A stretch of 64,000 nucleotides of DNA from Bacillota bacterium (GTDB lineage Bacteria > Bacillota > Dehalobacteriia > UBA4068 > UBA4997): positions 1 through 64,000 of the forward strand of contig JAETNY010000010.1 of assembly GCA_021771915.1 (NCBI GenBank), in the 5' to 3' direction. The position numbers and the translations under genes were made by a program. Shown here one piece after another: positions 17,820-33,789 of the stretch. Within the stretch, counting starts at the first letter, position 1. Every line of letters begins with the position of its first letter. The notes below the pieces were generated by a model. That model was not told the origin of the DNA and searched no databases. It was given only the letters and a program-made list of their open reading frames with translations.

Positions 17820-17829
17820 GGGCGGCCTC

Positions 17830-18083: not shown

Positions 18084-18124
18084 GACGTCCTGTTTTGTCC
18101 GATTGTTGTGTGCTAGAATAATAG
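18084..18124 (+). promoter_or_regulatory. Promoter-like element upstream of the terminase genes (copy 1 of 2)
   Basis: This 41-base stretch matches 32 of 41 positions with 19710-19750. The shared core contains TGTCCG, TTGTTGTGTG and the extended -10-like TGCTAGAAT (18111-18119). It has no standard -35 at 17 bases. The two copies sit upstream of the terminase pair and of the portal gene, so a dedicated activator or alternative sigma factor is plausible. Confidence 0.55.
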
Positions 18125-18167
18125 CATTAAAAATTGTTTGAAAATTTGGCGAGGAAAGGAGATTTTT

Positions 18168-18434
18168 ATGGTTGAGAAAAAGCGACGAGCGGTGGCCTGT
18201 AAAACTGAAATTATGCAGTTTTTAACCGAGGTTATGCGCGGCGAGGTGCATGACCGGCATGAAACGCAAAAGGGCGGCGAAGTTCAGGTTCGGTTGGACG
18301 CGCCGAAAGTTAGCGAGCGTACTAAGGCGGCGGAACTTTTGGGGCGCAGCCAGCACCTTTTTTCTGATAAGACGCAGAATACGGGCAAGACTTTGGCGGT
18401 ACGGATTTGGGGCGAGGACGATTTGACGGATTGA
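18168..18434 (+). CDS. Terminase small subunit-like protein lacking the N-terminal HTH
   Basis: The 88-residue product matches only the C-terminal half of Terminase_2/XtmA-type small subunits: EIMQFLTEVMRGEVHDRHE, then SERTKAAELLGRSQHLF. In family members this follows a helix-turn-helix of about 60-70 residues that recognises viral DNA. That region is missing here. An AAAGGAG site supports ATG at 18168, and the upstream sequence is promoter and not coding. It is the first gene of the phage element, 30 bases before the large subunit. Loss of the DNA-recognition half would favour unspecific packaging, which is inference. Confidence 0.75.
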   Translation: MVEKKRRAVACKTEIMQFLTEVMRGEVHDRHETQKGGEVQVRLDAPKVSERTKAAELLGRSQHLFSDKTQNTGKTLAVRIWGEDDLTD

Positions 18435-18464
18435 GAGATGGTTGGGAAAGGAGGGGTTTGAGAT

Positions 18465-19697
18465 TTGCAGGATATTTATTTGCCGCAGCTGGTGGGCGGT
18501 GGTTATCGGGATTTTTGGCATTTTACCGGGCGTTACCGGGTTGTTAAGGGAGGCAGAGCCAGTAAAAAATCGAAAACAACGGCTTTGAATTTTATCTGGC
18601 GTTTGGTACGTATGCCGCAGACCAATTTGTTGGTTGTGCGCAAGACGTATCGTTCTTTGCGCAATTCCTGTTATGCGGAACTTGTCTGGGCGGTACATCA
18701 GCTGGGTTTGAGCGCTGTTTGGCAGTTTCGGGAGGAGCCTTTGGAGATGACTTATCTGCCGACGGGGCAGAAGATTTTTTTTCGGGGTTTGGACGACCCA
18801 CACAAGATTACATCTATTGTGGCGCCGCAGGGGCAGCTTTGTTTTCTTTGGCTGGAGGAGGCCTTTGAAGTAAGCCGGGAGGAAGATTTTACAATTTTGG
18901 ACGAAAGTATTCGCGGACCGGCCCCTTTTAAGCAGCTGACGCTGACCTTTAACCCCTGGAATGAGCGGCACTGGCTGAAGCGGCGTTTTTTTGATGGCCC
19001 GGCCTGCCCGGATATTCTGGCCAAGACGGTGGATTATCGCTGCAACGAGTTTTTGGACGAGGCTGACCGGCAGCTTTTTTTTAACATGGCGCGGCAGAAC
19101 CCCCGGCGTTATCGGGTGGCTGGTTTGGGAGAATGGGGCGTGGCGGAAGGGCTGATTTTTGAGAACTGGCGCGAGGTGGATTTTGATTTATCTGCTTTGC
19201 GTGCTCGACCGCAGATGTGCAGCATTTTTGGTTTGGATTTTGGTTATGTGAATGATGAAACGGCGCTGTTTTGCGGCCTGGTGGATTTGGCTGCGCGGCG
19301 TATTTTTGTTTTTGATGAAATTTATCAGCGTGGGCTTAGTAATGAGCAGATTTATGCGGAGATTGGGCGCAGGGGGTATGCCAAGGAGCGAATTTGCGCG
19401 GACAGCGCTGAGCCGAAGAGTATCGACCGGCTGCGTGAACTTGGTATTGAGCGGATTAAACCGGCGCGCAAGGGTCCGGACAGCGTGCGGCATGGTATTG
19501 ATTTTTTGCAGGATTTTGAAATTCTGGTGGCTCCGCGCTGCCGGAATTTTTTGGCGGAAATCAGCGCTTATAATTGGCAGGCGGATAAAAATGGCCGGTT
19601 GCTGAATGTGCCGGCGGATTGTAATAATCATTTGATGGACGCAATGCGCTATGCGGCGGAAGATTTGTTGCTGCGAGATAGCTTTAGCTTTAGTTAG
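18465..19697 (+). CDS. Phage terminase large subunit (PBSX/XtmB family)
   Basis: This ATPase-nuclease motor pumps DNA into the procapsid. The 410-residue protein shows a Walker A-like VKGGRASKKSKTTA (about residues 27-40), Walker B with catalytic acid LCFLWLEEAFE, and nuclease acidic residues in GLDFGYVNDETA, ICADSAEPKSIDRL and NNHLMDAMRYAAEDLL. All key motifs are present, so it should be active. Translation starts at TTG (18465), with AAAGGAGGGG at the right spacing. The packaging motor is intact although its small subunit is shortened. Confidence 0.95.
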   Translation: MQDIYLPQLVGGGYRDFWHFTGRYRVVKGGRASKKSKTTALNFIWRLVRMPQTNLLVVRKTYRSLRNSCYAELVWAVHQLGLSAVWQFREEPLEMTYLPTGQKIFFRGLDDPHKITSIVAPQGQLCFLWLEEAFEVSREEDFTILDESIRGPAPFKQLTLTFNPWNERHWLKRRFFDGPACPDILAKTVDYRCNEFLDEADRQLFFNMARQNPRRYRVAGLGEWGVAEGLIFENWREVDFDLSALRARPQMCSIFGLDFGYVNDETALFCGLVDLAARRIFVFDEIYQRGLSNEQIYAEIGRRGYAKERICADSAEPKSIDRLRELGIERIKPARKGPDSVRHGIDFLQDFEILVAPRCRNFLAEISAYNWQADKNGRLLNVPADCNNHLMDAMRYAAEDLLLRDSFSFS

Positions 19698-19709
19698 GCG
19701 TTGGGGAAA

Positions 19710-19750
19710 GATGTCATGGAATGTCCGGTTGTTGTGTGTTAGAATAGTAT
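19710..19750 (+). promoter_or_regulatory. Promoter-like element upstream of the portal gene (copy 2 of 2)
   Basis: This is the second copy of the element at 18084-18124, with core TGTCCG, TTGTTGTGTG and an extended -10-like TGTTAGAAT (19737-19745). It would drive the portal-capsid-tail genes separately from terminase. Confidence 0.55.
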
Positions 19751-19788
19751 CGTCAAGAAAAGTGAACAGGGGGGAAAAGAAAAAATAA

Positions 19789-21252
19789 ATGAAAAGGATT
19801 AGTGAGATTTGCCGCAGGCTTGGTTCAGCCGGCGGTTTTTTGTTGGGCAAAAAAACCGAGCAGCCAGCGGAATTGCAGGTTTTGGGCTGGGAACTGGGGC
19901 GCTGGCTGACCTCTGACAAGCGTCGGCAAATGTTGACCGGGGAGGCTTATTTTGCCGGGCAGCAGGATATTTTGCGTCAGCGGCGCATGGTGATTGGGCG
20001 CGGCGGTCAGCTTGAGACGGCGCCTAATTTGCCAAATAATCGTCTGATTAACAATCAGTATGCCAAGTTGGTTAATCAGAAAACCAATTACATGCTGGGG
20101 CAGCCTATCAGTTGGGAGAGTGATTGTCCGGAGTTTGCCGACGCTTTGGGGCGGATTTTTGACCGGCCTTTTATGCGTTTGCTGAAACGATTGGGCAAGG
20201 ACTGTTATAATCAGGGGATTGCCTGGCTTTTTCCGTATCTTGATGGGGAGGGGCGGCTGGCTTTTGCCCGGTTTGCCGGGCATGAGATTTTACCCTTTTG
20301 GGCGGACGCAGAACATACGCGCCTGACTGGGGCGCTGCGTTTTTTTGGCCGGGAAATCTGGCGGCAGGGGTGTTTACAGACGGTTTGGGGCGTGGAGGTT
20401 TATGGTTTGAATGGCGTGCGCTTGTTTGGTTGGGAGCCGGGGTTGGGGCGGCTGATACCCTGGGCCTGGGGCGAGGCGGAATTGTCCTTGGGGCAGGCCA
20501 GACCGTATTTGCAGCGCGTGAGTGCGGACGGGAGCATTGAGGGCTTTAACTGGCAGCGCGTGCCGCTTATTCCTTTTAAGCTGAATGAGAGTGAGCGGCC
20601 GCTTATTTGTCGGGTGAAATCCTTGCAGGACGCGCTTAACACCATGCTTTCTGCTTTTGAAAATGTTATGCAGGAGGATATGCATAATACGGTTCTGGTG
20701 ATTAAGAATTATGACGGCACGGATTTGGCTGAGTTTCGGCATAATCTGGCTGCTTATGGTGCGGTTAAGGTTAAGACGATTGACGGCGCGGAGGGTGGTA
20801 TTGATACGCTTTCTGTTGATGTGAACGCCGGCAATTATCAGGCTATTTTGGAACTTTTGCAGCGCGCGATTATTGAGAATGGTTTGGGGTTTGACTCCAA
20901 GCTTGACCGGGCTTATCGGGCGGCGAATGAGATGAATATTAAATCCATGTACAGCGATATTTGTCTGGACGCTAACGATTTGGAAACGGAATGGCAGGCC
21001 AGTTTTGCTGAATTACTCTGGTTTGTTAAGCGGTATCTGGCGCTTAGTGGTCAGGGTGATTTTCTCTCCTGCGGTTGGCGGCTGATTTTTAACCGCGATA
21101 TTATGATTGATGAAAGTGAGGCTATTGATAACTGTTTGAAGTCGGTTGGTTTGCTTTCTGAAAAATCGGTTATTGCGCAACACCCCTGGGTGAATGATGT
21201 GGAAAATGAGATGCGCCGACTGGCGGCGCAGGAGGCCCGGCATGCAGGTTGA
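19789..21252 (+). CDS. Phage portal protein (SPP1 gp6-like)
   Basis: The portal forms the dodecameric ring through which DNA enters the head. This 487-residue protein fits the SPP1-gp6 family: an N-terminal wing with NLPNNRLINNQYAKLVNQKTNYMLG, a crown/stem region with SLQDALNTMLSAFENVMQEDMHNTVLVIKNYDG, and a conserved C-terminal RAANEMNIKSMYSDICLDAN. The spacing from the GGGGGG site is long (about 14 bases). It overlaps the next gene by 11 bases. No minor head (Mu F-like) gene and no head protease follow, unlike in many SPP1- or PBSX-type phages. Confidence 0.93.
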   Translation: MKRISEICRRLGSAGGFLLGKKTEQPAELQVLGWELGRWLTSDKRRQMLTGEAYFAGQQDILRQRRMVIGRGGQLETAPNLPNNRLINNQYAKLVNQKTNYMLGQPISWESDCPEFADALGRIFDRPFMRLLKRLGKDCYNQGIAWLFPYLDGEGRLAFARFAGHEILPFWADAEHTRLTGALRFFGREIWRQGCLQTVWGVEVYGLNGVRLFGWEPGLGRLIPWAWGEAELSLGQARPYLQRVSADGSIEGFNWQRVPLIPFKLNESERPLICRVKSLQDALNTMLSAFENVMQEDMHNTVLVIKNYDGTDLAEFRHNLAAYGAVKVKTIDGAEGGIDTLSVDVNAGNYQAILELLQRAIIENGLGFDSKLDRAYRAANEMNIKSMYSDICLDANDLETEWQASFAELLWFVKRYLALSGQGDFLSCGWRLIFNRDIMIDESEAIDNCLKSVGLLSEKSVIAQHPWVNDVENEMRRLAAQEARHAG

Positions 21253-22189
21253 TTTGTTGATTAACGACGGCAAGAACTGGCTGCGGCCGCAGGTTTTGAG
21301 TGGTTTGCGTTTGCAGCGCGCGGCTAATGCGGCGGCTGTTTTGGATTTTGTGGTGGTTAAAAATGGCATGCTGAATTTTTTGGAGGGCGCGCCGGTGCGT
21401 TTGCGTCTGGACGGGCAGACGGTTTTTGTTGGCCGGGTTTTTAGCAAGCGGCGGCGGCAGCCGGAACTTATTCAGGTGCGCGCTTATGACCAGCTGCGTT
21501 ATTTGCAGAACCGTGATTGCTGCATGCTGCGCGATTTTACGCCGGGTGATTTGCTGCGGCGTATTTGCAGTGAGAATAATATGCAGCTGGGTAAGGTGGC
21601 GGATTGTGGATTGCGTTTGGGGGCGCATAGTTTTGATAACCGTAGGTATCTGGATATGCTGGCGGAGGTTTTGGCCGAGGTTTGGCAGGCCAGGGGGCGG
21701 CGTTATTTTGTTTATGATGATTGCGGTGCGGTTTGTCTGCAAAGCTGCTGGGATATGCGCGTTAATATTCTGCTGGCGGCGGATTGTATTGGCGGCTATG
21801 AATATGCTACCTCGATTGATGAAAAGACCTATAATCGGGTTAAGGTGATTTATGAGGATAAGCGCAAGGGGTTGCGCAAGGAGTTTGTGGCCGAGGACGG
21901 GGGCAAAATTGCCGATTGGGGCGTTTTGCAGCTGGTAAGCAAAAACGCGGACGCTAAACAGCAGACTTATAGCCGGGCGCGAGAACTTTTACAGCTTTAT
22001 CGTCAGCGGCGTGAAAGTCTGCTTGTTTTGCAGGCTCCGGGCAATATTATGGTGCGCGGCGGCAGTATGGTGGGCGTGCGTTTAAATCTGGGCGAGCAGC
22101 TGGTGGATTGCTGGGCGCTGGTTAAGCGAGCGGAACATCTGATTGAACAGGGAAATTGTTTGATGAATTTGAGTTTGGAATTACAGTAG
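21242..22189 (+). CDS. XkdQ-like baseplate/tail hub protein
   Basis: The 315-residue protein matches the PBSX XkdQ/gpD-like tail hub family. It begins with VDLLINDGKNWLRPQVLSGL, has RVRAYDQLRYLQNRD-like hub motifs (read as VRAYDQLRYLQNR), a central FTPGDLLRRICSENN, and ends with ALVKRAEHLIEQGNCLMNL. GGAGG just upstream fixes ATG at 21242, inside the end of the portal gene. In PBSX, xkdQ lies far downstream among the tail genes. Here it directly follows the portal gene, which is unusual. Confidence 0.8.
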   Translation: MQVDLLINDGKNWLRPQVLSGLRLQRAANAAAVLDFVVVKNGMLNFLEGAPVRLRLDGQTVFVGRVFSKRRRQPELIQVRAYDQLRYLQNRDCCMLRDFTPGDLLRRICSENNMQLGKVADCGLRLGAHSFDNRRYLDMLAEVLAEVWQARGRRYFVYDDCGAVCLQSCWDMRVNILLAADCIGGYEYATSIDEKTYNRVKVIYEDKRKGLRKEFVAEDGGKIADWGVLQLVSKNADAKQQTYSRARELLQLYRQRRESLLVLQAPGNIMVRGGSMVGVRLNLGEQLVDCWALVKRAEHLIEQGNCLMNLSLELQ

Positions 22190-22259
22190 CGATGCGCTTG
22201 CCTGGGGCGTTCTAATTGGAATGATTGGCATATATATAGAATTCAGGGAGGAGTGAAGG

Positions 22260-22706
22260 ATGTATCATTATTTTATTGGCGAACTGGAGTTGCCGCTGGC
22301 ACCGGAAAAATATACTCTGCGTTTGCGCCAGAATAATCAGCTGGTGCAGCTGGCGGACGGCACTGAGTTGAACCTTTTGCGGCCGGCTGGTTTGCGCGAA
22401 ATCAGTTTTGAGTTGCTGCTGCCTTATTTTGAGGACTCGCCGCTGCTGCGCAATGGGGTGCGCGTTTATAAACCAATTTATTATTTAAACCGGCTGGCGG
22501 AATGGGCGGCCAGCGGTGAGGCACGGCGGCTGATTATCTATCGCTCTCTGCCGAATGGCGAGGAGATTTTTAATACTAGTATGCTGGTGAGTTTGGAGGA
22601 TTATCAGGTTTTGGAAGCAGCCGATTTGGGTTTTGATGTGCGCGTGGCTTTGCGTTTGCGCGAGTATGTAGAGAAAATTTGTCAGAAATATGTGGGTAAT
22701 TTATAA
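22260..22706 (+). CDS. XkdP-like tail protein without LysM domain
   Basis: This 148-residue protein matches the N-terminal part of XkdP-type tail proteins: LPLAPEKYTLRLRQNNQ, LNLLRPAGLREISFELLLP, PIYYLNRLAEW and a RSLPNGEEIFNTSMLVSLED strand pattern. PBSX XkdP (about 220 residues) carries a C-terminal LysM module, whereas this protein stops after VALRLREYVEK. A GGGAGGAG site precedes the start. The protein probably joins the tail hub to the baseplate. It follows the XkdQ-like gene after a 70-base gap. Confidence 0.75.
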   Translation: MYHYFIGELELPLAPEKYTLRLRQNNQLVQLADGTELNLLRPAGLREISFELLLPYFEDSPLLRNGVRVYKPIYYLNRLAEWAASGEARRLIIYRSLPNGEEIFNTSMLVSLEDYQVLEAADLGFDVRVALRLREYVEKICQKYVGNL

Positions 22707-22733
22707 AACCTGTTGACTAGAGGGGGAAAAATT

Positions 22734-23078
22734 TTGCAGACAGCAGCTTTGACGGACGCGCTGGTTGGTTTGGCCAAGCGAGCGGCGGATAGTCTGCCGG
22801 CGGTCAGCTTTGCCTTTGGGCGAGTTGTGAATGAAAGCCCTTTGCAGATTATGCTGGAGCAGCGTCTTTTGGTGCCGGAGGAGGAACTGATTTTGACGGA
22901 CTCGGTGATTGGTTTTGTGGAGCGGCGGCAGGACGATGAGCGTTATTTAAAAGATAAAATTTATCGGGTGTATCATAATTTGGAATTGAATGACCGCGTT
23001 TTGTTGGCCTGCGTTCAGGGTGGGCAGGCTTATGTGATTGTTAGCCGTTATTATGCAACGGAATTGGACGAGGTGTGA
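22734..23078 (+). CDS. XkdR-like phage protein (DUF2577 family)
   Basis: The 114-residue protein matches the DUF2577/XkdR family of small baseplate-associated proteins: LVGLAKRAADSLPAVSFAFG, then LTDSVIGFVERR and LNDRVLLACVQGGQAYVIVS. The family role is structural, near the baseplate hub. TTG at 22734 with AGAGGGGG upstream is the best start; the frame is open from 22713. Its end overlaps the start region of the next gene. Confidence 0.75.
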   Translation: MQTAALTDALVGLAKRAADSLPAVSFAFGRVVNESPLQIMLEQRLLVPEEELILTDSVIGFVERRQDDERYLKDKIYRVYHNLELNDRVLLACVQGGQAYVIVSRYYATELDEV

Positions 23079-23086
23079 GGTTGGAT

Positions 23087-23995
23087 ATGAATGGGGAAAG
23101 TGTTTTGAGCGAATGGCTGGCGCGCTTACAGCAGGGGCGTGTATGGCGGCGGCAGGCGGAGGAGTTTGACAGTTGGAGCCAACTGGCCGGTGAGGATTTG
23201 CTCCGGCTGGTGAGCGAGGCCGCCCCGGGAGAGCGTCCGAGTGAACGGGATATTTGCTTGTTATTGGGTATAAATTCGCCTTTGGCGCAGGCAAATGGCT
23301 ATTCTTTGGCTGGGGTGGGCCAGCGTTTTAATAGTTTATATCAGCGTGGCAAGCATCGTTTAACCTCAACTGCGCCAATGTTAAGCAAAGCAGATGGAGC
23401 GTTTCAGGGAGAAAGTGATAATTTATGGGAAACGGCGGCGGCTGATTTAAGCGAGGTTGGTGCGGAGTTGTTACCGGATTTGGATTCTCCTGACGCAATA
23501 TGGCCGGAAGATTTGTCTGATGATACGACAGCGCTTTCTTTGGTATTGTCTGGGCGAAAGGCGCACAAAGTGGCGGCGGCGGAGAGTAAATCGGGTATGG
23601 AGCGTAAATCGGAAATAAAGATAAAATCTTCTGCGGGGCCAAAAGTAAAAATGAATAGTCAAACCGAAACGGCAAACAAAGTTGAAACGACAGGGGAAGA
23701 TATTGTTTCCGCGTCATGGCCAGAGCTGGTGTTTTCAGCAAATTTGCTTAAATCGGCGGAAAATGAGCCGGTGCAGCCGCTGACGGCGGCAGAGGCGTCA
23801 GCGGAAAGGTTGACGGAAATATCGGCGGATATACCGGTGCAATTGACCTCTGCGCGCTCGGAGGTTTTGAATACGCCTGGCGTGGAGCCGGAGCCGTTGG
23901 TGACTGGGGCTGATGTTGATATGCTGACCGATTTGGTGGCGGAGCGTTTGCGTGAAGATATTGAGGCTTTATTGGGGAGCGCGTCTTTGATTTGA
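23087..23995 (+). CDS. Unknown phage-element protein in the tape-measure position
   Basis: I do not recognise this 302-residue protein. Residues 1-95 look folded and helical (SEWLARLQQGRVWRRQAEEF; ERDICLLLGINSPLAQANG). Residues 95-260 are rich in Ser, Ala, Lys, Glu and Thr and are probably disordered. The last 30 form an amphipathic helix (DMLTDLVAERLREDIEALLG). It lies between the XkdR-like gene and the XkdN-like chaperone gene, where the tape measure (XkdO) would fall if the tail block were reversed. No other tape-measure candidate exists in the element. If it is one, the tail would be very short. It lacks the transmembrane segments typical of tape measures. Confidence 0.45.
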   Translation: MNGESVLSEWLARLQQGRVWRRQAEEFDSWSQLAGEDLLRLVSEAAPGERPSERDICLLLGINSPLAQANGYSLAGVGQRFNSLYQRGKHRLTSTAPMLSKADGAFQGESDNLWETAAADLSEVGAELLPDLDSPDAIWPEDLSDDTTALSLVLSGRKAHKVAAAESKSGMERKSEIKIKSSAGPKVKMNSQTETANKVETTGEDIVSASWPELVFSANLLKSAENEPVQPLTAAEASAERLTEISADIPVQLTSARSEVLNTPGVEPEPLVTGADVDMLTDLVAERLREDIEALLGSASLI

Positions 23996-24028
23996 TGTTT
24001 ATGAGATTATGGGAGAGGGGGGAATTGT

Positions 24029-24439
24029 TTGATGAGCAGGGATTTGACGGCTTTTTTGGCGGCCAGTGCGCCGCGCGAGAATTTGCGACTGCTGGTTTCT
24101 GAGCGTTTTGTGGACGAGCAGGGACAGCCGCAGCTTTGGGAGTTGCAGCCGCTGACGGCGGCCGACTGGCAGGAACTTTTACTGGCGGCGGCACGGCAGG
24201 AGGAAATTGGGCATAAGTTACGCTTTAACGATATTTTTTTGCAGTTGTTGGTAAAATCTGTGGTTTGGCCGGATTTGAACAGTGTTGAGTTGCAGGATAG
24301 TTATGGCGTTTTGGGTGCGGAACAGCTGCTGTTGAAAATGCTTTCACCGGGGGAATATCAGGCTTTGCAGCAGGCTTTTGAACGCTTGAATTTGCAGAGC
24401 CAGACGGCGGAGGCTCATTTGGCGGCGGCAAAAAACTGA
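24029..24439 (+). CDS. XkdN-like tail assembly chaperone (zero-frame product)
   Basis: This 136-residue protein matches the PBSX XkdN chaperone: a central FLQLLVKSVVWPDLNSVELQ followed by DSYGVLGAEQLLLKMLSPGE. Such chaperones bind the tape measure during tail assembly and are classically made in two lengths, like lambda gpG and gpGT. The coding region ends at a slippery A AAA AAC heptamer (24430-24436) directly before the TGA stop. The overlapping -1 frame stays open to 24594, giving a 188-residue longer form. A GAGAGGGGGG site lies upstream. Confidence 0.85.
   Translation: MMSRDLTAFLAASAPRENLRLLVSERFVDEQGQPQLWELQPLTAADWQELLLAAARQEEIGHKLRFNDIFLQLLVKSVVWPDLNSVELQDSYGVLGAEQLLLKMLSPGEYQALQQAFERLNLQSQTAEAHLAAAKN
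24430..24436 (+). other. Programmed -1 frameshift site in the tail assembly chaperone gene
   Basis: A AAA AAC lies in the correct phase: zero-frame codons are GCA AAA AAC, followed at once by TGA. Tandem slippage to AAA AAA continues as CTG ATT AAG and so on. It is one of the best-known bacterial -1 slippery sequences and sits exactly where tail chaperone G/GT shifts occur. Confidence 0.85.
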
Positions 24440-24594
24440 TTAAGGCCGGCGATTGGGAGGTATGCGCAGCCTGGCTGGCGCTTTTGCGCTGGGGTTGGCG
24501 GCCCGGCGAATTTATGCAGTTGAGCGCCGCCGAGCGCGCCTTTGTGATTGCCGGCCTGCAACGGGAAATGGAAATTTTGCAGCAAAATAGCTAA
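24436..24594 (+). CDS. Frameshift extension of the tail assembly chaperone (52 codons)
   Basis: Read only after the -1 shift, this segment has no ribosome binding site and no plausible start of its own. It adds 52 residues beginning LIKAGDWEVCAAWLALLRWG and containing RPGEFMQLSAAERAFVIAGL, a compact helical domain. It ends 16 bases before the scaffold gene. In lambda-type systems the extended form binds the tape measure and the tube subunit. Without the frameshift this stretch would be an unexplained gap. Confidence 0.8.
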   Translation: MIKAGDWEVCAAWLALLRWGWRPGEFMQLSAAERAFVIAGLQREMEILQQNS

Positions 24595-24610
24595 GTATAA
24601 GGAGGGTAAT

Positions 24611-25048
24611 ATGCAGGAAAATGGGCGGAAAAATAAAGCCGAAAATGTGACTGAAAATAAGCCGGAGATGGTAAGCCGGGCGGAGTATGAGCGCCTTAAG
24701 CTGGAAATGACGGCGGAGCGTTTGTTGGCTGAGGCTGGCGCCAGGAGTTTGCCGGCAGCTATGGCCTTGTTGAATTGGTCGGTTTTGGATTTTCAGGCGG
24801 AGGATTGGGTGGAGCGTCTGCGGCAGCAAATCCGGGAACTGCGTCGGCGTTCGGATACCGCTTTTTTGTTTGCGCCGGAACGGCAGGAGCAGGATTATCA
24901 TTGGCTGGGTTTGCAGCCGCAAGCGGCCGGCGATATGATTGATGTTTACGGCGCGGACGGCGCTTTTGGTCTGCGTCTGGCGCAGGCCGAGGGCGTTGAG
25001 GCGATTAAGATTAAGCAGGAAGCGGCTGCGCAGGGAATTATTTTATAA
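24611..25048 (+). CDS. Phage scaffolding protein (GP20-like)
   Basis: The 145-residue protein has a charged coiled-coil N-terminal half (EYERLKLEMTAERLLAEAGA) followed by RSLPAAMALLNWSVLDFQ. That pattern is found in phage GP20-type scaffolds, in which a coiled coil precedes an A.ALL motif. It lies 61 bases before the major capsid gene, as expected for an assembly scaffold removed from the mature head. An AAGGAGG site supports ATG at 24611; an open frame upstream is the -1 chaperone extension region. No head protease gene is present, so the scaffold may leave without being cleaved. Confidence 0.75.
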   Translation: MQENGRKNKAENVTENKPEMVSRAEYERLKLEMTAERLLAEAGARSLPAAMALLNWSVLDFQAEDWVERLRQQIRELRRRSDTAFLFAPERQEQDYHWLGLQPQAAGDMIDVYGADGAFGLRLAQAEGVEAIKIKQEAAAQGIIL

Positions 25049-25109
25049 AAAAATTTTTTAAGTGGTGGGTTGGGTTTGGGTATTTTTTTAAGAAAGGATT
25101 GATTTAATA

Positions 25110-26111: not shown

Positions 26112-26539
26112 TGATGGCGGATTTGGACGAACTGCGCCGGCGTTTAATGGCTTTGGGCTATCTGTTTGCGGAGGAGGACAACGAGGCGGCCTTCGGATTG
26201 GAGCAGGCGGCGCTTGAGCTGGCTTTAAGCCGGTCGGCTGCTTTTGTGGAGCAGTTTTGTAATCGTCTGCCGCAGGCGGAGGGGGCGGAACTGCCTCTGG
26301 TTTCTGCGTTTTTGGATTTGGCCGCCGCTTATTTTTTGCAATCTCGATTGGCTTTGACACCGGAAAGTTTGGCGGTTATGCCCAACCTGACCTCGCTGCG
26401 TTTGGGGGACGCGGCCTGGGGCTTTGGCGGCGGCAGCCAGAGGAGTGGTGTTGACGAAAAAAGCCGTGCCGAGGGGCTGGCGGACGATTTGCTTCATTCC
26501 GCCAGGGCGGCGCTGTGCGCCTGGCGCTCTGTTTATTAG
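26108..26539 (+). CDS. Phage head-tail connector protein (gp6/YqbG-like)
   Basis: The 143-residue mostly helical protein follows the capsid gene with a four-base overlap, the position of head-tail connector proteins (HK97 gp6, skin-element YqbG). It shows an N-terminal helix (DLDELRRRLMALGYLFAE), a central VEQFCNRLPQAEGAELPLVS like the connector family, and a helical C terminus. The assignment rests on position and size more than on motif. Starts at 26108, 26111 or 26114 are possible. Confidence 0.65.
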   Translation: MMMADLDELRRRLMALGYLFAEEDNEAAFGLEQAALELALSRSAAFVEQFCNRLPQAEGAELPLVSAFLDLAAAYFLQSRLALTPESLAVMPNLTSLRLGDAAWGFGGGSQRSGVDEKSRAEGLADDLLHSARAALCAWRSVY

Positions 26540-26562
26540 CGAGATAGGGGGGTATGGCATAC

Positions 26563-26961
26563 ATGACAACAATGGACGCTGCATATGCGGCGGCGCGGCA
26601 ACAACTGCGCCGGCTTTTGGTCGGCGTTTGCACGGTTTATGCTTTGCAGGTTCAGGAAGTGGCCGGTGTTTGCTGCGGCGAGTTTTGGCAGCCGTTGGCC
26701 GGCTGGTCTGATTTGCCCTGTTATTTGGCTTTTGGCCAGAATGAGCCGGCCAGAACGGACAGCGCGGCTGACGGTAGCGGCGTGGAGGCGCGTTTCCAAC
26801 TGTTTTTGCCGCCGGCCGAGCCGGGTTTGGCCTTGCCGGTTGGCAGTCGGGTGCGCGTTGAGCAATGGGGACAGGTTTATTGGTTGGCGTGCAGTGGACA
26901 GGCGGCCTGTTATCCGACACATATGGAGGTTATGGTGCGGCTTTTGGACGAACGTGCCTGA
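26563..26961 (+). CDS. Phage head closure/stopper-like protein
   Basis: This 132-residue protein begins with a short helix (AAYAAARQQLRRLLVG) followed by beta-strands (CTVYALQVQEVAGV; GSRVRVEQWGQVYWLACSG). It resembles head-closure (YqbH/DUF3599-like) proteins, which plug the connector and receive the tail. The position between connector and tail terminator supports this. ATG at 26563 has better spacing from AGGGGGG than ATG at 26554. It is unusually rich in cysteine for its size (about six). Confidence 0.6.
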   Translation: MTTMDAAYAAARQQLRRLLVGVCTVYALQVQEVAGVCCGEFWQPLAGWSDLPCYLAFGQNEPARTDSAADGSGVEARFQLFLPPAEPGLALPVGSRVRVEQWGQVYWLACSGQAACYPTHMEVMVRLLDERA

Positions 26962-26979
26962 AAGGGGGGGTGATGAGTT

Positions 26980-27501
26980 TTGCAGGATTTTTTGTGGGCG
27001 GCGGCAACTAAGCTGCGTCAGCTTTTTCCGGGCGGCGAGGTGGGGCCGGTTTATTTTGGCCGGCTTTTGCAGGGCGAGCGAACGCCCTGCTTTTATTTAC
27101 CGCCGCCGGCGCTGCATCGTCAGCTTTGGCCCTGTGGACGGGTGCGCCGGGAGATTGATTTGACTTTGCATTATTATCCCCGTCCGTCTAAGGCGGCGGC
27201 TGAAAAGCCGGATGGGGCATGGAGCGGTTTGGCGGAACAGGAACGCATTGGCGAGGGGCTTGTGCGTGGTATGGCGGAATTGAGCGGTCGGCTGCGCGCT
27301 TATCGGGGGCATGATTTGCATTGGCAGGCTGGCAATGAGTACTTATGTTTTCAGGCCAAATATGTTTATTATACAACGCTGGAATTGGAGGCAGCTGATA
27401 AATTGAGTTTGCCGCCGAAGGGTGCTGATTTGATGCAGTTTTTGGCTATTGGGTCGCTTGATGATACGGCGGCGGATATTAATAAAAAAATTGAAAAATA
27501 A
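26980..27501 (+). CDS. Phage tail terminator-like protein (YqbJ/XkdJ position)
   Basis: This 173-residue protein precedes the sheath gene, where PBSX- and skin-type elements encode the tail completion protein. It has an alpha/beta pattern with REIDLTLHYYP and a C-terminal CFQAKYVYYTTLELE, compatible with the tail-terminator fold. The call rests mainly on position. It starts at TTG (26980), after AAAGGGGGGG. Its end lies 16 bases before the sheath gene. Confidence 0.6.
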   Translation: MQDFLWAAATKLRQLFPGGEVGPVYFGRLLQGERTPCFYLPPPALHRQLWPCGRVRREIDLTLHYYPRPSKAAAEKPDGAWSGLAEQERIGEGLVRGMAELSGRLRAYRGHDLHWQAGNEYLCFQAKYVYYTTLELEAADKLSLPPKGADLMQFLAIGSLDDTAADINKKIEK

Positions 27502-27517
27502 AGGAGGGTGACAGCAT

Positions 27518-28825
27518 ATGTCATTTGGTGGCGGCAGTTTTGTGACGCAAAATAAAATTTTGCCGGGTGTTTATGTTAATGTTAACCAGCAGGGCCGGGT
27601 TGGCTCTAATCTTTCTGACCGCGGCGTGGCGGCTTTGGGTTTGGAATTGGACTGGGGACCGGACGGCGAGGTTTTTTATCTGGACGCCGGAGAGTTCCGC
27701 ACGCGCGCTCAGGGGCTGTTTGGATATGCTTATGGCGAAGATGTGTTGAAAGGTTTGCGCGATTTGTTTCTGCATGCCGGCGGTTGTTATTTTTATCGCT
27801 TAAACAGCGGCGTTAAGGCGAGTTGCGCTTTATGTGAGGCGAAATATAGCGGCGAGCGAGGCAATGCTCTGGTGATTAAGGTGGACGCTGACCCGGAAGC
27901 CGAAAACGGTTTTGTGGTTTTGACTTTTTTGGCCGGGCAGGAAGTGGACAGCCAGCAGGTGGTCAGCGCGGCCGACCTGCAGGATAATGATTTTGTTTGT
28001 TGGAAAAGCGGCGCGGAATTGACGGACGGCAGTTATTTGCAGCTGACCGGCGGCACTAATAAGGCGGCGGTGGCTTCTGAGGAATATCAGAAGATGCTGG
28101 ATTTGCTGGAGGAATATGAATTTAATGTTTTGGGTTGTTTGAGCATGGATAATGCGGTTAAGACGCTTTTGTTGAAATATACACGTGAGCAGCGTGAGGA
28201 AAATGGCCGCAAATTCCAGACGGTGCTTTATGATTTTGCGGCCAATTATGAGGGCGTGATTTCTGTTGGCTATCCGGCGCAGGAGGAGGGTTTGGCGGCC
28301 AGCGCCAGCGTTTATTGGCTTTTGGGCGCGGAGGCCGGCTGTGCGGTTAATGCTACGCTGACCAATGCGGTTTATGACGGCGAGATTAAGGTTTCCGCTT
28401 TGAGCGGTCAGCGTGAGTTACAGCAGGCATTGTTGGCCGGGCGTTTGGTTTTGCACCGTCTGCATGGTGAACTGCGCGTTTTGGAGGACGTTAACTCTTT
28501 GCAGGGCTGGCAGGAAAGCGGCCAGGAGGACCGGCGTTTTAATCAGACTATTCGGGTTTTGGACCAGATTGTTTTAGATTTATCGGGTTTGTTTTATCAG
28601 CGTTATTTGGGCATTGTGCCGAATGATAACGCCGGACGTATCAGTCTTTGGGGCGATGTGGTGGCTTATTTCCGTAAGCTGGAGGGACTGCGCGCAATTG
28701 AAAGTTTTGATACGGCTGATGTTACGGTGGCTCCGGGCGAGAATAAAAAATCGGTTGTTATTGGTGTTTATTTAAATGTGACTAATGCGATGTCGCAGCT
28801 GTATTTAACGGTTACTTTTGCTTAA
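27518..28825 (+). CDS. Contractile tail sheath protein (XkdK family)
   Basis: The 435-residue sheath subunit wraps the tail tube and contracts on contact. Its N-terminal strand (ILPGVYVNVNQQGRVGS) and C-terminal VIGVYLNVTNAMSQLYLTV are the parts that link subunits in this family. A middle section contains TGGTNKAAVASEEYQKMLDLLEEYEFNVLGCLS, close to PBSX XkdK and skin YqbM. It shows that the particle is of contractile (myovirus-like) type. An AGGAGGGTG site precedes ATG at 27518. Confidence 0.93.
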   Translation: MSFGGGSFVTQNKILPGVYVNVNQQGRVGSNLSDRGVAALGLELDWGPDGEVFYLDAGEFRTRAQGLFGYAYGEDVLKGLRDLFLHAGGCYFYRLNSGVKASCALCEAKYSGERGNALVIKVDADPEAENGFVVLTFLAGQEVDSQQVVSAADLQDNDFVCWKSGAELTDGSYLQLTGGTNKAAVASEEYQKMLDLLEEYEFNVLGCLSMDNAVKTLLLKYTREQREENGRKFQTVLYDFAANYEGVISVGYPAQEEGLAASASVYWLLGAEAGCAVNATLTNAVYDGEIKVSALSGQRELQQALLAGRLVLHRLHGELRVLEDVNSLQGWQESGQEDRRFNQTIRVLDQIVLDLSGLFYQRYLGIVPNDNAGRISLWGDVVAYFRKLEGLRAIESFDTADVTVAPGENKKSVVIGVYLNVTNAMSQLYLTVTFA

Positions 28826-28844
28826 AAAGGGGGGATTTCAGGAT

Positions 28845-29312
28845 ATGGCAACAACTATGAACGCCTGGGACGCTTTAAGCGCCGGGCTGGCGGAATGTTA
28901 TGTGACGCTGGACGGGCGGCGTTATAAATTTATGCAGGCTATTAATCTGGAGGCCAGCATTGAGAAGAAGAAAATGCAGGTTCCGGTTTTGGGGCGCGTG
29001 GGGCGCGGCAATAAGGGGGTTAGCTGGAGCGGCTCCGGCAAGGCGACTTTTCATTATAACAGTTCTATTTTTCGGGAGCTGTTATATCGCTTTAAGGAAA
29101 GCGGCGAGGATATGTATTTTGATATTCAGATTACCAATGAGGACCCGGTGAGCAGCGTGGGGCGGCAGACGGTTATTTTGAAAGACTGCAATTTGGACGG
29201 CGGCGTTTTGGCCAAGTTCAGTGCCGATGACGAATATTTGGAGGAAGAAATGCGTTTTACCTTTGAAGATTTTGAAATTCCGGAGAAATTTAATGATTTG
29301 GCCGGTATGTAA
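28845..29312 (+). CDS. Tail tube protein (XkdM family)
   Basis: This 155-residue protein forms the inner tube. It matches XkdM/YqbN: an AECYVTLDGRRYKFMQAINL start, ASIEKKKMQVPVLGRVGRGN, then YNSSIFRELLYRFKESGEDMYFD. The start at 28845 follows AAAAGGGGGGA. It directly follows the sheath gene, as in PBSX. In PBSX the chaperone and tape measure genes come next. Here the next gene is the XkdS-like one, because those genes lie upstream of the capsid gene. Confidence 0.93.
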   Translation: MATTMNAWDALSAGLAECYVTLDGRRYKFMQAINLEASIEKKKMQVPVLGRVGRGNKGVSWSGSGKATFHYNSSIFRELLYRFKESGEDMYFDIQITNEDPVSSVGRQTVILKDCNLDGGVLAKFSADDEYLEEEMRFTFEDFEIPEKFNDLAGM

Positions 29313-29351
29313 GCGGCAAAGGGCTGAACCAGTGAAAAGGGGAGATGGCTG

Positions 29352-29717
29352 ATGACGGAGGAAACTAAAACCTATGCTATGAGCAACCTTTCTGGTCGGG
29401 GCTGTGTGGTGCGCGGTATGACTGACGGTTTGGAGGCGCTGCGGCAGGCGGTTTTTCTGCTTTTGCAGACCGAGGCTGGACGTTGGCCGGTTTATTCTGG
29501 GGATTATGGAGTTGAGTTGGCCGGTCTTTTTGGTCGGCCATCGGCTTATGTGATACCGGAGGCGGAAAGACGGCTGCGCGAGGCTTTGCTGCGTGATGAG
29601 CGCATTTTGGCGGTGGAGGATTTTAAGTTTAAGCAGCAGGGCAGTCGTTTGGCCTGCTGTTTTGTGGTGAAAAGCATCTATGGAGAATTGGCGCTGGGAA
29701 CGGAGGTTTTGTTATAA
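29352..29717 (+). CDS. XkdS/gp25-like baseplate wedge protein
   Basis: The 121-residue protein fits the T4 gp25-like/DUF2634 family, which nucleates sheath assembly at the baseplate. It contains TEAGRWPVYSGDYGVELAGL with the W..Y...YG pattern, then RRLREALLRDERILAVEDF, which is typical of gp25-type proteins. It is followed by the baseplate J protein gene, as in XkdS-XkdT. A GGGGAG site precedes ATG at 29352. Confidence 0.88.
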   Translation: MTEETKTYAMSNLSGRGCVVRGMTDGLEALRQAVFLLLQTEAGRWPVYSGDYGVELAGLFGRPSAYVIPEAERRLREALLRDERILAVEDFKFKQQGSRLACCFVVKSIYGELALGTEVLL

Positions 29718-29794
29718 AAGCCTGAGCAGACCGGTGATTTGATATTGCTGTTGGGTTGCCGGAGGGGCTGACGGCGAAAGGAGGTAAACTGGAA

Positions 29795-30865
29795 ATGTAT
29801 GAGAGTATGACATATGAAAAAATTCTGGCGGATATGCTGAAACAGGTTAACAGCCCAGTGGATAAGCGCGAGGGCAGTCTGATTTGGGACGCGCTGGCTC
29901 CGGCGGCCTGGGAGTTGGCTCAACTTTACCGGGGTTTGGAGCAGGTTTTGCAGGAGGGGTTTGCGGATACGGCTTCCCGGCCTTATCTGGTGCTGCGCGC
30001 CAGCGAGAGGGGGCTTGCGCCGCGTGCGGCCAGCGCCGCCCGGGCTTTGGGGCGGATTGAACTGGCTTCTGGCGCGCAGGTTCCGCTGGGTACGCGTTTT
30101 TGCTGCGAGCGTTTTAATTGGCGTGTGGTGGATAAGCTGGACGATAATTTTTATGAATTGGAATGTGAGCAGGTTGGCAGCCAGCCCAACGCTTATATTG
30201 GTCATATGGCGCCGCTGGAATATTTGAACGGTTTGAGCAAGGCTGAGTTGGAGCGCATTTTGGTGCCGGGCGAGGACGAGGAGGGAACCGAGGCTTTTCG
30301 GGCGCGTTATTTAAAAGATTTGTTGGAGCAGAGTTTTGGCGGTAATGTGGCGGATTATGTAAATAAGGCCGAGGGCATTGCCGGCGTGGGTGCGGCCAAG
30401 GTTCAAGCGGCCTGGCAGGGCGGCGGTACGGTTAAACTGATTTTGTTGAATGAGAAACTGGGCGTGCCGGATAGTGCGCTGGTGCAGCGTGTGCAGATGC
30501 TTTTTGACCCTTCGCCGACGCAGGGCGCCGGGTTGGGACTGGCGCCGATTGGTCATGTGGTTACGGTGGCGGCGGCTAAGGCGAAAAGCGTGGCGGTCGG
30601 TTTGCAGGTTAGTCTGCGCGAGGGCTGGCAGCTGGCGGACGTGCAGGCGGCGGTTGCCGGTTGTATAGACGAGTATTTTGCGGATTTGGCGGCTGACTGG
30701 AGCGCGGCCGCTTATTTGACGGTGCGCGTCAGTCAGCTGGAGGCGCGTATTTTGCAGTTAAATGGGGTTTTGGACGTCAGCGGTTTGACTTTTAACGGGC
30801 GAGCGGCTAATTTGTTGCTGGCGGCTGATGAAATTCCCGTCAGGGGTCAGGTGGTGGTGCGATAA
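29795..30865 (+). CDS. Baseplate J-like protein (XkdT family)
   Basis: The 356-residue baseplate wedge component has the J-family pattern: MLKQVNSPVDKREGSLIWDALAPA at the N terminus, a central ERILVPGEDEEGTEAFRARYL and a C-terminal LEARILQLNGVLDVSGLTFNG. Together with gp25- and XkdU-like proteins it builds the wedge. AAAGGAGG fixes the start at 29795, although the frame is open from 29756. It ends three bases before the next gene. Confidence 0.92.
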   Translation: MYESMTYEKILADMLKQVNSPVDKREGSLIWDALAPAAWELAQLYRGLEQVLQEGFADTASRPYLVLRASERGLAPRAASAARALGRIELASGAQVPLGTRFCCERFNWRVVDKLDDNFYELECEQVGSQPNAYIGHMAPLEYLNGLSKAELERILVPGEDEEGTEAFRARYLKDLLEQSFGGNVADYVNKAEGIAGVGAAKVQAAWQGGGTVKLILLNEKLGVPDSALVQRVQMLFDPSPTQGAGLGLAPIGHVVTVAAAKAKSVAVGLQVSLREGWQLADVQAAVAGCIDEYFADLAADWSAAAYLTVRVSQLEARILQLNGVLDVSGLTFNGRAANLLLAADEIPVRGQVVVR

Positions 30866-30868
30866 ACT

Positions 30869-31411
30869 ATGGCGAATAAATTGGACAGTTATTTGCCGCC
30901 GGTGGCTTTGCAAATTCAGGACGTGGCTCAGGTTTTGGCGGTTGAGCAGCCTTATTTTACTTTGGCTTGGCAGCATGTGGAGCAGGTTTTGCTTGAGCAG
31001 ATGATTATGCAGGCCGGCGAATATGGTATTGAGCGCTGGGAAAAGCTTTTGCAGCTTTCCGGCCGGGAAACATTGAGTTTAGCAGAGCGGCGGCATGCGG
31101 TTTTGCTGCGTTTGAATGAACAACTGCCTTTTACCATTACGAGGCTGCGTGAACTGCTGGCGGCCAGTCTGCCGGAGGGCGAATATATTTTGACGCTGGA
31201 CGCGGCTGCTTATACGCTGCATGTTTTTCTGGAATTGAGCGCAAAAGGCTGTGCGCCGGCTTTGCGTGAACTTTTACAGCGAGTTCTGCCGGCTAATTTG
31301 CAACTGGATTTGCAGCTTTTATATAATACCTATGGCCGGATTGCCGTTTATACGCATCAGCAGCTGGCGGCGCTGCGGCATTGGGAAATTAGAGAGGAGG
31401 TGTTGAACTGA
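30869..31411 (+). CDS. XkdU-like baseplate protein (DUF2313/YmfQ)
   Basis: The 180-residue protein has the YmfQ-like (DUF2313) layout: LAVEQPYFTLAWQHVEQVLLEQ, GIERWEKLLQLSGRETLSLAERR and LPFTITRLRELLAASLPEGEY. It usually connects the baseplate wedge to tail fibres. Its stop overlaps the start of the fibre gene by one base, which suggests coupling. In PBSX the order xkdS-xkdT-xkdU is the same. Confidence 0.88.
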   Translation: MANKLDSYLPPVALQIQDVAQVLAVEQPYFTLAWQHVEQVLLEQMIMQAGEYGIERWEKLLQLSGRETLSLAERRHAVLLRLNEQLPFTITRLRELLAASLPEGEYILTLDAAAYTLHVFLELSAKGCAPALRELLQRVLPANLQLDLQLLYNTYGRIAVYTHQQLAALRHWEIREEVLN

Positions 31412-32469
31412 TGGCAACCTATACGCCTAATTATAAATTGAAAAAACCGGCGGCTTCAGAATATTATAATATTCAGGATTTTAATGAGAATGCGGATAAG
31501 ATTGATACACAGCTTAAAATTGGCGAGGAGGCTAAAACTTTGGCTGATACGCTTAATAGCAGCATGACGGAGGCGCAGAGGGATATTACTTTGTTGTTGC
31601 AGCGGAGTTTGATTTCTTTTGAAATTTGGGCGCCGCCTAATACGCAGGTTATGTTACAGCAAGGGCAGCTTTCTTTTTCCGGCACGGTGGGTGATACGAT
31701 GGAACTGACGGCTTCTGTTTCCGCGCTGGGTACTTGGCAGATGATGTATGTTTATGCTAATAGGACCTATTCCCGGGAGGTGCGTTTGGAGCATATTGGT
31801 CAGACGCGCATTTTGGCGGCACCTACGCTGGCGGCTTCTCCCTGGGCTTATATTGCCAAGCTTTCAGCGGCTGGTCTGGCCAGAGAGGCTTATGCGCTGG
31901 GCGATACTAAAAGCGTTAGCAGCAGTTTGGGCACATATGATATGCAGATTATCGGTTTTGCGCATGATGTGTTGACGGCGGCTAAGGCCGGACAGGAGCG
32001 CGCCGGTATTACCTTTCAGATGAAATCAGCGACGCCGGCCAATTATTTTATGGACGAAAATATTTATTTTGCTAATACCTGGGAGCAGACTAATATGCGA
32101 ACCGTGCAGCTGCCGGCTATTTTGCAGTCTATGCCGAGCGACTTGCGCACGGTGATTAAGCAGGTGAATAAATATACGGCGGTTACGGGTAATAATATTG
32201 GCAAGACAACCAAGGAAAAGCTGTTTTTGTTTTCTGATTATGAACTTTGCGGTTACAGCAGACTGATTAATGATTATTGTTTTGGGCAGCAGTATGAATA
32301 TTATCGCTTTGGGCATACGCCGAATAAATCTACAATTTATTGGCTGCGTAATAATATTTCCGGACCGAATGGCAAGGAGAATTTTTTAGTGATGCATCCT
32401 GACATTTTGCAGCCGGGTTTTTATCGCTGCGAGGGTACTTATGGCATTAGTTTGGGTTTTTGTGTTTAA
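31411..32469 (+). CDS. Tail fibre/receptor-binding protein
   Basis: The N terminus (ATYTPNYKLKKPAASEYYN, then IQDFNENADKIDTQLK) is typical of fibres that attach to PBSX-type baseplates. A short coiled coil, a small beta domain and a C-terminal domain (about residues 265-352) follow. The last contains EKLFLFSDYELCGYSRL, YWLRNNISG and a final GISLGFCV, which resembles the DUF6273 surface-binding domain. The 352-residue length makes it a single short fibre. No fibre chaperone gene follows, and no reverse transcriptase or template repeat for diversification was seen. Confidence 0.8.
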   Translation: MATYTPNYKLKKPAASEYYNIQDFNENADKIDTQLKIGEEAKTLADTLNSSMTEAQRDITLLLQRSLISFEIWAPPNTQVMLQQGQLSFSGTVGDTMELTASVSALGTWQMMYVYANRTYSREVRLEHIGQTRILAAPTLAASPWAYIAKLSAAGLAREAYALGDTKSVSSSLGTYDMQIIGFAHDVLTAAKAGQERAGITFQMKSATPANYFMDENIYFANTWEQTNMRTVQLPAILQSMPSDLRTVIKQVNKYTAVTGNNIGKTTKEKLFLFSDYELCGYSRLINDYCFGQQYEYYRFGHTPNKSTIYWLRNNISGPNGKENFLVMHPDILQPGFYRCEGTYGISLGFCV

Positions 32470-32522
32470 GCTTTGAGGGACATTGCGTTATAAGAGGAAT
32501 ATAATATAGAGGAGGACATTAA

Positions 32523-32753
32523 ATGATGATTTTACAAAGACTGGCCAGGCTTTTGGACGTTAAAAGTCTGGTGACGCTGGCGCTGGTTCTGGTTTTGTGT
32601 ATTATGACGTTGAGCGGCCGGGAGGTCAGCGAACTTTTTAGCAGCGCGGTGATGCTGGTTCTGGGCTTTTTTTTCGGTAAAAATGTTCAGAGAGATAATA
32701 TATCTGTTGATTTAGACAAAAATCAGGCGGATAGTTATCTGGGCGGCAAATAA
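32523..32753 (+). CDS. Small two-helix membrane protein, holin-like
   Basis: The 76-residue protein has two hydrophobic segments (about residues 15-32 and 38-55) and a charged C terminus (NQADSYLGGK). Its size, topology and place between fibre and hydrolase genes fit a holin. I see no family-specific motif, so this is inference from context. A GAGGAGG site precedes the start. Confidence 0.6.
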   Translation: MMILQRLARLLDVKSLVTLALVLVLCIMTLSGREVSELFSSAVMLVLGFFFGKNVQRDNISVDLDKNQADSYLGGK

Positions 32754-32804
32754 ATTGTAAAAAAGTTGAATAGTAAAAATAAACAGGAGCGAGAGGAGAG
32801 AAAA

Positions 32805-33416
32805 ATGCGTTATCCTTTTGATAAATATCGCCTGGGGACGCGTTATGGCGCGAAAGGGCGTTTTTGGAAGGCCGGTTGGCACAGCGGCCAGGATTTTATT
32901 TCCATAAGTTTTGGTGGTGACGGTCTGGTTTATCCTTTGTATGCCGGCGAGGTGCTGCGTGTGAGCCATGGTGGCAGTTATGGCAACTGTGTTTATTTGC
33001 GCCATGCGGACGGCTACATTACTCTTTATGCGCATTTGCGTACTGTTTACGTGCGCGTTGGCCAGACGGTGCAGGAAGATACCGTTTTGGGTATTGAGGG
33101 CGCTACGGGGAATGTGACCGGCCGGCATTTGCATTTGGAGGTACATAAGGGCAGTTATAGCTATCCCTCAATGATTGACCCTTTGCAGTTTATTGCTAAG
33201 GGTATTATGAATGATAATAATTCTGGAGGCGGAGAGGAGGCGGAAGAATTGGAAAAGCAGCTTAAAATTCGTTTGAACGGCGTTTTGAAAAATGTGCAGG
33301 CTATTGAAAAGCAGGGATTTAATTATGTTCGTTTGCAGGATTTGCGTGACGCGCAGATTGAAGTGGGCTATGATGAGATTGCGCATATTCCATTTTTGAG
33401 CGTGCAGGCGGAATAA
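32805..33416 (+). CDS. M23-family peptidoglycan hydrolase (endolysin or tail-tip lysin)
   Basis: The 203-residue protein consists of a LytM-type M23 metallopeptidase domain (residues 1-130) with zinc ligands in GWHSGQDF and GRHLHLEVH, and a charged C-terminal tail (residues 140-203: EEAEELEKQLKIRLNGVLK). The tail has no recognised wall-binding module. There is no signal peptide, so export would need the preceding holin-like protein. AGGAGAG precedes ATG at 32805. It is the last gene of the phage element and ends about 80 bases before a host promoter. Confidence 0.88.
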   Translation: MRYPFDKYRLGTRYGAKGRFWKAGWHSGQDFISISFGGDGLVYPLYAGEVLRVSHGGSYGNCVYLRHADGYITLYAHLRTVYVRVGQTVQEDTVLGIEGATGNVTGRHLHLEVHKGSYSYPSMIDPLQFIAKGIMNDNNSGGGEEAEELEKQLKIRLNGVLKNVQAIEKQGFNYVRLQDLRDAQIEVGYDEIAHIPFLSVQAE

Positions 33417-33491: not shown

Positions 33492-33510
33492 TGATATAAT
33501 ATAAATTATG
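33492..33510 (+). promoter_or_regulatory. Extended -10 promoter directly at the start codon of the 33508 gene
   Basis: TG A TATAAT (33492-33500) forms an extended -10 box. The start codon ATG at 33508 lies only seven bases after it, so transcription would begin at or next to the A of ATG. No ribosome binding site precedes it. The mRNA is predicted to be leaderless. Confidence 0.6.
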
Positions 33511-33750: not shown

Positions 33751-33789
33751 AAAACGGCGCTGTATTGGTTTGTCAAAAGAGGTTTGATA

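Follow-up and report, generated by a model that had tools for sequence, protein, structure and literature searches.

How should a set of phage particle genes be read when it stands among chromosomal neighbours and shows no linked means of spreading? This question is raised by a compact cluster of PBSX type, with genes for head, contractile tail and lysis, which occupies the + strand at positions 18091-33416 (genes 18168-33416) of the window, by which we mean the whole 64,000-nucleotide stretch analysed (contig JAETNY010000010.1 of assembly GCA_021771915.1, a Bacillota bacterium whose nearest named records are uncultured Peptococcaceae and Candidatus Avidehalobacter gut assemblies). We consider it fairly probable that this element goes back to a PBSX-type prophage that was domesticated and already fixed when its genus began to radiate, and that it works like a gene transfer agent (GTA); judged from sequence, an SOS-controlled, GTA-like Bacillota particle with a short contractile tail would be its best reading. 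With somewhat less than even confidence, we further suggest a contractile-tailed GTA of gut Bacillota caught mid-domestication, in which the small terminase (TerS) passes from pac-reading to recognition-less within the genus, the tail is shortened, and control lies with an unlinked SOS-type switch and a private promoter.

The first step concerns the descent of the element. Our genome set comprised ten members of the family, all of them assemblies and few in number: nine of the genus (Avidehalobacter group) and one, G009, of a sister genus. G000 is the genome of the window and forms a clade with G008, G004 and G005, and the element-bearing members of the sister clade are G001, G002, G003 and G006. 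The capsid gene was found in 8 of the 10 genomes (8/9 within the genus) at 78-99% identity and was absent from all 26 genomes that belong to the order but not to the genus. Cluster order is identical in all eight, and wherever the region is assembled the element stands beside the same right flank, DUF5665-lspA-rluD-rarA (33508..36667, +). The left border consists, in the window's clade, of a divergent pair encoding a Coat_F protein and a 57-amino-acid protein (17553..18003, -; PF07875 2e-18 for 17553-17816), and in the sister clade of other chromosomal genes. In G009, DUF5665-lspA-rluD are present and the site is empty. In G007 the element is missing from the assembly and the switch pair discussed below is present; because rluD and rarA are missing as well, this is no evidence of loss. 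In G003 the cluster seems split, with its two halves on two contigs and terS on a third; there, terS (C189, L093:3867-4310) is intact and lies beside pxpA, followed by typA, and terL (C175, L017) follows a transporter gene.

Maximum-likelihood trees of eight element proteins and of three flank proteins have identical topology. Pairwise Nei-Gojobori estimates of synonymous divergence (dS), the larger of which are saturated, were, for element and flank respectively, 0.13-0.16 and 0.13, 0.53-0.55 and 0.44, 1.1 and 1.04, and 0.75-0.80 and 0.79. The element is vertically inherited and descends together with the chromosome. By the same method, the ratio of nonsynonymous to synonymous divergence (dN/dS) was 0.07-0.20 for head genes, 0.06-0.21 for tail genes and 0.09-0.19 for lysis genes, with 0.03-0.13 for the flank genes, and the large terminase, portal and capsid genes fell at 0.03-0.17. 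Head, tail and lysis genes are thus all under purifying selection. A preliminary description, made from the letters of the window, had proposed an element kept by selection and had expected the same site in relatives and a dN/dS well below 1; the single site in eight genomes and the values of 0.06-0.21 bear this out, and the irregular presence at different sites in close relatives that it had named as telling against it was looked for, with the opposite outcome.

Packaging and head genes are constrained as much as tail genes, and this speaks against both a headless weapon and decay. An R-type tailocin with residual head genes, that is, a weapon made of the tail without the head, could draw on the complete contractile tail and baseplate and on a headless tail locus of G005 that carries the same promoter; however, the element retains terminase, portal, scaffold and capsid genes under the same constraint as those of the tail, the capsid is among the most conserved of the element's proteins, and a tail without head genes, which marks an R-type tailocin, is not what we found. 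We hold this explanation to be very unlikely indeed. The least likely of all is a recently trapped prophage, functionless and decaying, for which one might cite a single broken sheath frame in G006 and the fragments of a large terminase and an integrase-like gene that exemplify decay at another locus of the window's own genome; against it, the remaining genomes have intact frames although dS reaches 1-2, dN/dS lies near that of the neighbouring housekeeping genes, and promoters and switch are conserved. The other locus (G000:C13; L018, L032, L033) is a second one of PBSX type, with a CI-like repressor, the two fragments and a 928-amino-acid tape measure; no capsid gene was found in it, and it is possibly a decaying prophage or tailocin.

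Can the element still move as a phage? Between the coat genes (17553-18003) and DUF5665 (33508), no integrase, repressor or replication gene is linked to it. No convincing long att-like direct repeats flank it, the best families being of 36 nucleotides at 67-72% and located within genes; the lysogeny genes and att sites of a functional temperate prophage are thus not found in the element. G+C content is 0.43-0.59 inside and 0.36-0.58 outside. In these respects the preliminary description, which had reported host-like base use, chromosomal flanks (coat-protein genes and DUF5665-lspA-rluD) and no integrase, replication gene or attachment repeat, stands. Self-spreading functions are absent from the element as far as the sequence tells, and it would no longer be able to spread as a phage. 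Three features expected of a GTA were accordingly found: vertical inheritance at a fixed site; purifying selection on head, tail, packaging and lysis genes; and the absence of its own integration and replication genes.

A further feature concerns packaging. The terS gene of the window (18168..18434, +; ATG at 18168, mechanical open-reading-frame start at 18138) encodes a truncated TerS of 88 amino acids without the helix-turn-helix domain, which matches PF03592 at positions 55-138 only. TerS proteins of 82-88 amino acids without this domain occur in G000, G008, G004 and G005, and full-length ones with the N-terminal region in G001, G002, G003, G006 and related phages; G000, G008 and G004 match only the second half of PF03592, as does G005 by alignment. 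A profile of the full-length proteins matches SF6 TerS (3zqp) end to end, as well as the isolated DNA-binding domains 2cmp and 4zc3, and a profile built from the remaining part covers only residues 84-159 of SF6 TerS. The predicted model of the window's TerS matches the SPP1-like TerS oligomerisation domain (3zqp) with E values of 8e-5 to 5e-4; its superpositions gave a root-mean-square deviation of 2.7-4.9 A for the core only and high values for the full domain. The lost part would not fit in front of the gene: the interval between the divergent 57-amino-acid gene and the ATG of terS is only about 164 bases long and already contains a promoter. TerS of the window's clade has thus lost its N-terminal DNA-recognition domain in a gene that is still constrained, the truncated terS having dN/dS of 0.15 and 0.21 after the loss. 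TerS of the Rhodobacter capsulatus agent RcGTA is without the N-terminal DNA-binding domain, a trait proposed as a mark of GTAs (PMC6854486), and that of the Faecalibacterium agent FpGTA is without an obvious one (PMC12946183). This mark is seen in G000, G008, G004 and G005 and not in G001, G002, G003 and G006. With the recognition domain lost, particles of the window's clade would therefore probably carry random pieces of the host genome.

How might such particles be controlled? By aligning the regions before terS we saw a shared block, a private candidate promoter of the form TGGAATGTCCG-N9/10-TGnTAnAAT, which lies ahead of both terS and portal. Candidate promoter 1 (TGTTTTGTCCG-N9-TGCTAGAAT; 18091..18119, +), upstream of terS, is kept before terS in seven genomes and before terL in G003; candidate promoter 2 (TGGAATGTCCG-N9-TGTTAGAAT; 19717..19745, +), upstream of the portal gene, keeps its position in relatives except G003. 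The pattern TGTCCG-N9/11-TGnTAnAAT occurs twice in the whole G000 genome, before terS and before portal (19722), and GGAATGTC-N11/13-TGnTAnnAT gave 12 matches in the 10 genomes, of which 11 lie in the element and the twelfth in the tail locus G005:C32; its reversed control matched once. LexA/DinR-type boxes (GAACNNNNGTTC, one mismatch) were also considered and rejected, there being 10 in the window with 13 expected and none at the element promoter. The locus G005:C32 (L194:5133-15251) itself holds a contractile tail and baseplate, no head genes and three private-promoter copies, and is possibly an R-type tailocin under the element's regulator.

A stand-alone sigma-region-4 activator resembling Xpf, distinct from its prophage homologues, is present in 9/9 genomes of the genus at 52-98% identity (PF04545 3.5e-9 in G000). 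Its surroundings were read in the eight genomes other than G003; there, a LexA/CI-type repressor with HTH_3 and peptidase S24 domains, whose RISAG motif is invariant, is encoded divergently from it, and no other phage genes surround the pair; dN/dS of activator and repressor is 0.04-0.15. In G000 the pair lies on C23 (40650-41264, -, and 41462-41881, +), so that the earlier statement that there is no repressor holds at the locus and fails genome-wide. PBSX is SOS-induced and kills strains that do not carry it; for the element, the Ala-Gly motif of the S24 repressor likewise predicts SOS induction. In prophages of G001 (C17) and G004 (C79) the promoter motif is preceded by a gene for a sigma-region-4/DUF1492-like protein and followed by the terminase genes; by this parallel, and by co-occurrence, the unlinked pair is likely the element's controller. 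The GTA reading gains from such a dedicated, unlinked switch together with the loss of the TerS recognition domain.

The same promoter bears on another explanation, namely that of a lysogenic phage or a satellite which has its missing functions elsewhere and is helped in trans, for example, by the promoter-sharing loci G005:C32, G001:C17 and G004:C79. The private promoter is indeed common to these three prophage-like loci, and related activators occur in prophages; however, helper-driven spread would give scattered sites, whereas the element is confined strictly to one, co-descends with the chromosome, is without att repeats or integrase and encodes a complete head and tail by itself. The two switch genes, moreover, also occur in G006 and G007, where no prophage activator was found. 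We judge this explanation very unlikely; helper prophages with the shared promoter might play a part in its expression, though not in its spread.

Gene order sets the element apart from phages. In the genus, xkdQ-xkdP-xkdR-X-xkdN sits between portal and scaffold, a private rearrangement, whereas prophages with the nearest capsids (65-69%) keep the usual order sheath-tube-xkdN-tape measure-xkdP-xkdQ-gp25-gpJ. Of 103 loci with related capsids, taken from viral contigs and named genomes, none had the rearranged order except those of the genus and L096 (IMGVR_UViG_3300035520_001426). The latter is filed as viral and its capsid is 86% identical to that of the window, so that the presumably domesticated element is here counted as a virus. 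Protein X (23075..23995, +; 306 amino acids, variable, low-complexity, no family match), which adjoins XkdN, measures 286-340 amino acids in 8/8 genomes, compared with 626-910 for the tape measures of most phage relatives. Its sequences hardly align among the eight genomes, with the length staying near 300 amino acids, and at a dN/dS of 0.45 (G000 vs G008) it changes much faster than all its neighbours and is the only loose gene. By eye, its last 30 residues are like the ends of phage tape measures. X is thus a candidate shortened tape measure; if it is one, the tail would be short, about 45 nm at 0.15 nm per residue of X. Another locus, L109 (IMGVR_UViG_3300010162_000914), is a compact PBSX-type cluster with a 281-amino-acid tape measure and the sheath after the fibre, possibly a second domesticated element in another lineage.

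The main rival of the GTA reading is a PBSX-like killer, whose heads hold host DNA that is not usefully delivered and whose contractile tail kills competitors, with selection acting for the killing. The gene set is of PBSX type, and for PBSX the packaging of random host fragments of about 13 kb and an SOS-induced release through lysis have been reported (PMC4243946); the conserved Xpf-like activator fits PBSX logic, and the contractile tail and lysis genes are also under selection. On the other side, the strong constraint on terL, portal and capsid noted above is unneeded for killing alone, and phage relatives have much longer tape measures than the candidate one here. Mildly against the killer speaks the fibre, the part in which a particle that kills kin should diversify: in close relatives it shows no excess change (dN 0.010, compared with 0.008-0.013 for other tail and head genes). 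The sequence moderately favours a GTA, and we consider the killer rather unlikely, if the most serious competitor.

As a GTA, the element may work as follows. DNA damage would activate RecA, and the unlinked S24 repressor would then cleave itself at its Ala-Gly bond and free the divergent activator, which would turn on both private promoters, one for terS-terL and one for the run from portal to lysin. Heads and short contractile tails would assemble, and in the window's clade a terminase whose TerS lacks the pac-reading helix-turn-helix would package chromosomal DNA into the heads whatever its sequence. Lysis by the holin-like protein and the M23 lysin would then set the particles free, and these would inject their DNA into related cells. 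The action of the switch on these promoters, SOS induction, random packaging and kin delivery are what we infer. A ComEC homologue is present in 9/10 genomes, which is weak evidence on gene transfer to recipients.

Several observations weigh against this reading. All genomes are uncultured assemblies, and the element is known from its genes alone. Half of the genus retains the TerS recognition domain, so its loss is not required for the element to persist, and the truncation also deletes the first helix of the oligomerisation core, which makes ring formation uncertain. Profile matches between X and tape measures were not significant; the link between switch and promoter rests on genus-wide co-occurrence and the prophage loci of G001 and G004; and the sheath frame of G006 is broken, which may be an assembly error.

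The 15-kb run of open frames for packaging, head, contractile tail, baseplate, fibre and lysis, as first described from the letters, was confirmed by family matches, with E-values of 1e-20 to 1e-101 for terminase, portal, capsid, sheath, tube, gp25, gpJ, gp48 and the M23 lysin; the scaffold, first neck protein, fibre and small membrane protein were assigned by weaker matches and position. All genes named here lie on the + strand. After terS comes terL, the large terminase (18465..19697; PF04466 2e-51, PF17288 3e-24; dN/dS 0.06-0.13), followed by an SPP1 gp6-like portal (19789..21252; PF05133 3e-63). The displaced block then begins with an XkdQ/YqbQ-like baseplate hub (21194..22189, true start probably ~21243; PF24032 2e-69), a short XkdP-like baseplate protein of 148 amino acids (22260..22706; phrog_380 1e-20) and an XkdR-like DUF2577 protein (22713..23078; PF10844 2e-15), and ends, after X, with the XkdN-like tail assembly chaperone (24029..24439; PF08890 3e-20). 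The putative capsid scaffold (24548..25048, start uncertain; PF06810 2e-4, below the curated cut-off) is placed by its position between tail block and capsid, and the major capsid protein (25110..26111; PF17236 8e-57) is of SU10 type. There follow a weakly assigned neck/head completion protein 1 (26108..26539; phrog_442 E 0.19, and position), a head-tail adaptor (26554..26961; phrog_615 2e-8), a tail terminator (26980..27501; PF20765 3e-5, above cut-off), the contractile sheath (27518..28825; phrog_279 2e-101, PF04984, PF17482) and the XkdM/DUF2001 tail tube (28818..29312; PF09393 1e-47). The baseplate is represented by a sheath initiator or gp25-like protein (29352..29717; PF10934 4e-24), a J-like protein (29756..30865; PF04865 5e-46) and a Mu gp48-like protein (30869..31411; PF10076 3e-22). 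The probable fibre with its DUF6273 end (31411..32469; PF19789 3e-4, below cut-off, and position) has an N-terminus common to other tail loci. Lysis would fall to a small holin-like membrane protein (32523..32753; phrog_13256 6e-13, function unknown, no Pfam match), placed by its position ahead of the lysin, and to the M23 peptidase endolysin (32766..33416; PF01551 5e-20). Elsewhere in the window, 1240-2145 and 3244-4143 (within 1240-4143) encode paralogous secreted proteins whose N-terminal stretches are highly alike.

How, then, does the element compare with known systems? With PBSX of Bacillus subtilis it shares homologous head, sheath, tube, XkdN/P/Q/R, baseplate and lysis genes and fixed chromosomal residence, and PBSX uses a sigma-like activator, Xpf (PMC4243946). 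The earlier label of PBSX-like is therefore right for the structural gene set and not for gene order: xkdQ-P-R-X-N stands between portal and scaffold, and the PBSX order sheath-tube-xkdN-xkdO-P-Q-R-S-T is not kept. Unlike PBSX, the element also has X of about 300 amino acids where a long tape measure stands, a TerS that lacks the helix-turn-helix in some members of the genus, and its comparable pair of Xre-type repressor and Xpf-type activator unlinked, not inside the element. Canonical PBSX-type prophages of Clostridia (L067, L102, L112 and others) have the closest capsid (65-69%), terminase, portal, sheath and tube, but the canonical order, tape measures mostly of 626-910 amino acids and full-length TerS. 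RcGTA is likewise a compact, vertically inherited cluster of about 15 kb with unlinked regulators and a TerS without the N-terminal DNA-binding domain (PMC6854486); our element differs in its contractile tail with sheath, PBSX-type genes and Bacillota host, and homology is not claimed. FpGTA shares with it the gut Bacillota host, a genus-wide operon, a TerS without obvious DNA-binding domain and its own lysis genes, but by its description FpGTA is podovirus-like with two operons (PMC12946183), whereas the element is one cluster with sheath and baseplate. Faecalibacterium was absent among the capsid relatives.

Because the genus contains sister species that differ in whether TerS keeps its recognition domain, with the rest of the element matching, the idea that domain loss leads to random packaging is directly testable. 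To our knowledge, few GTAs are known outside the Alphaproteobacteria. One podovirus-like GTA, FpGTA, was reported from gut Bacillota in 2026 (PMC12946183), and a contractile GTA in another order, if true, would suggest recurrent domestication in the gut.

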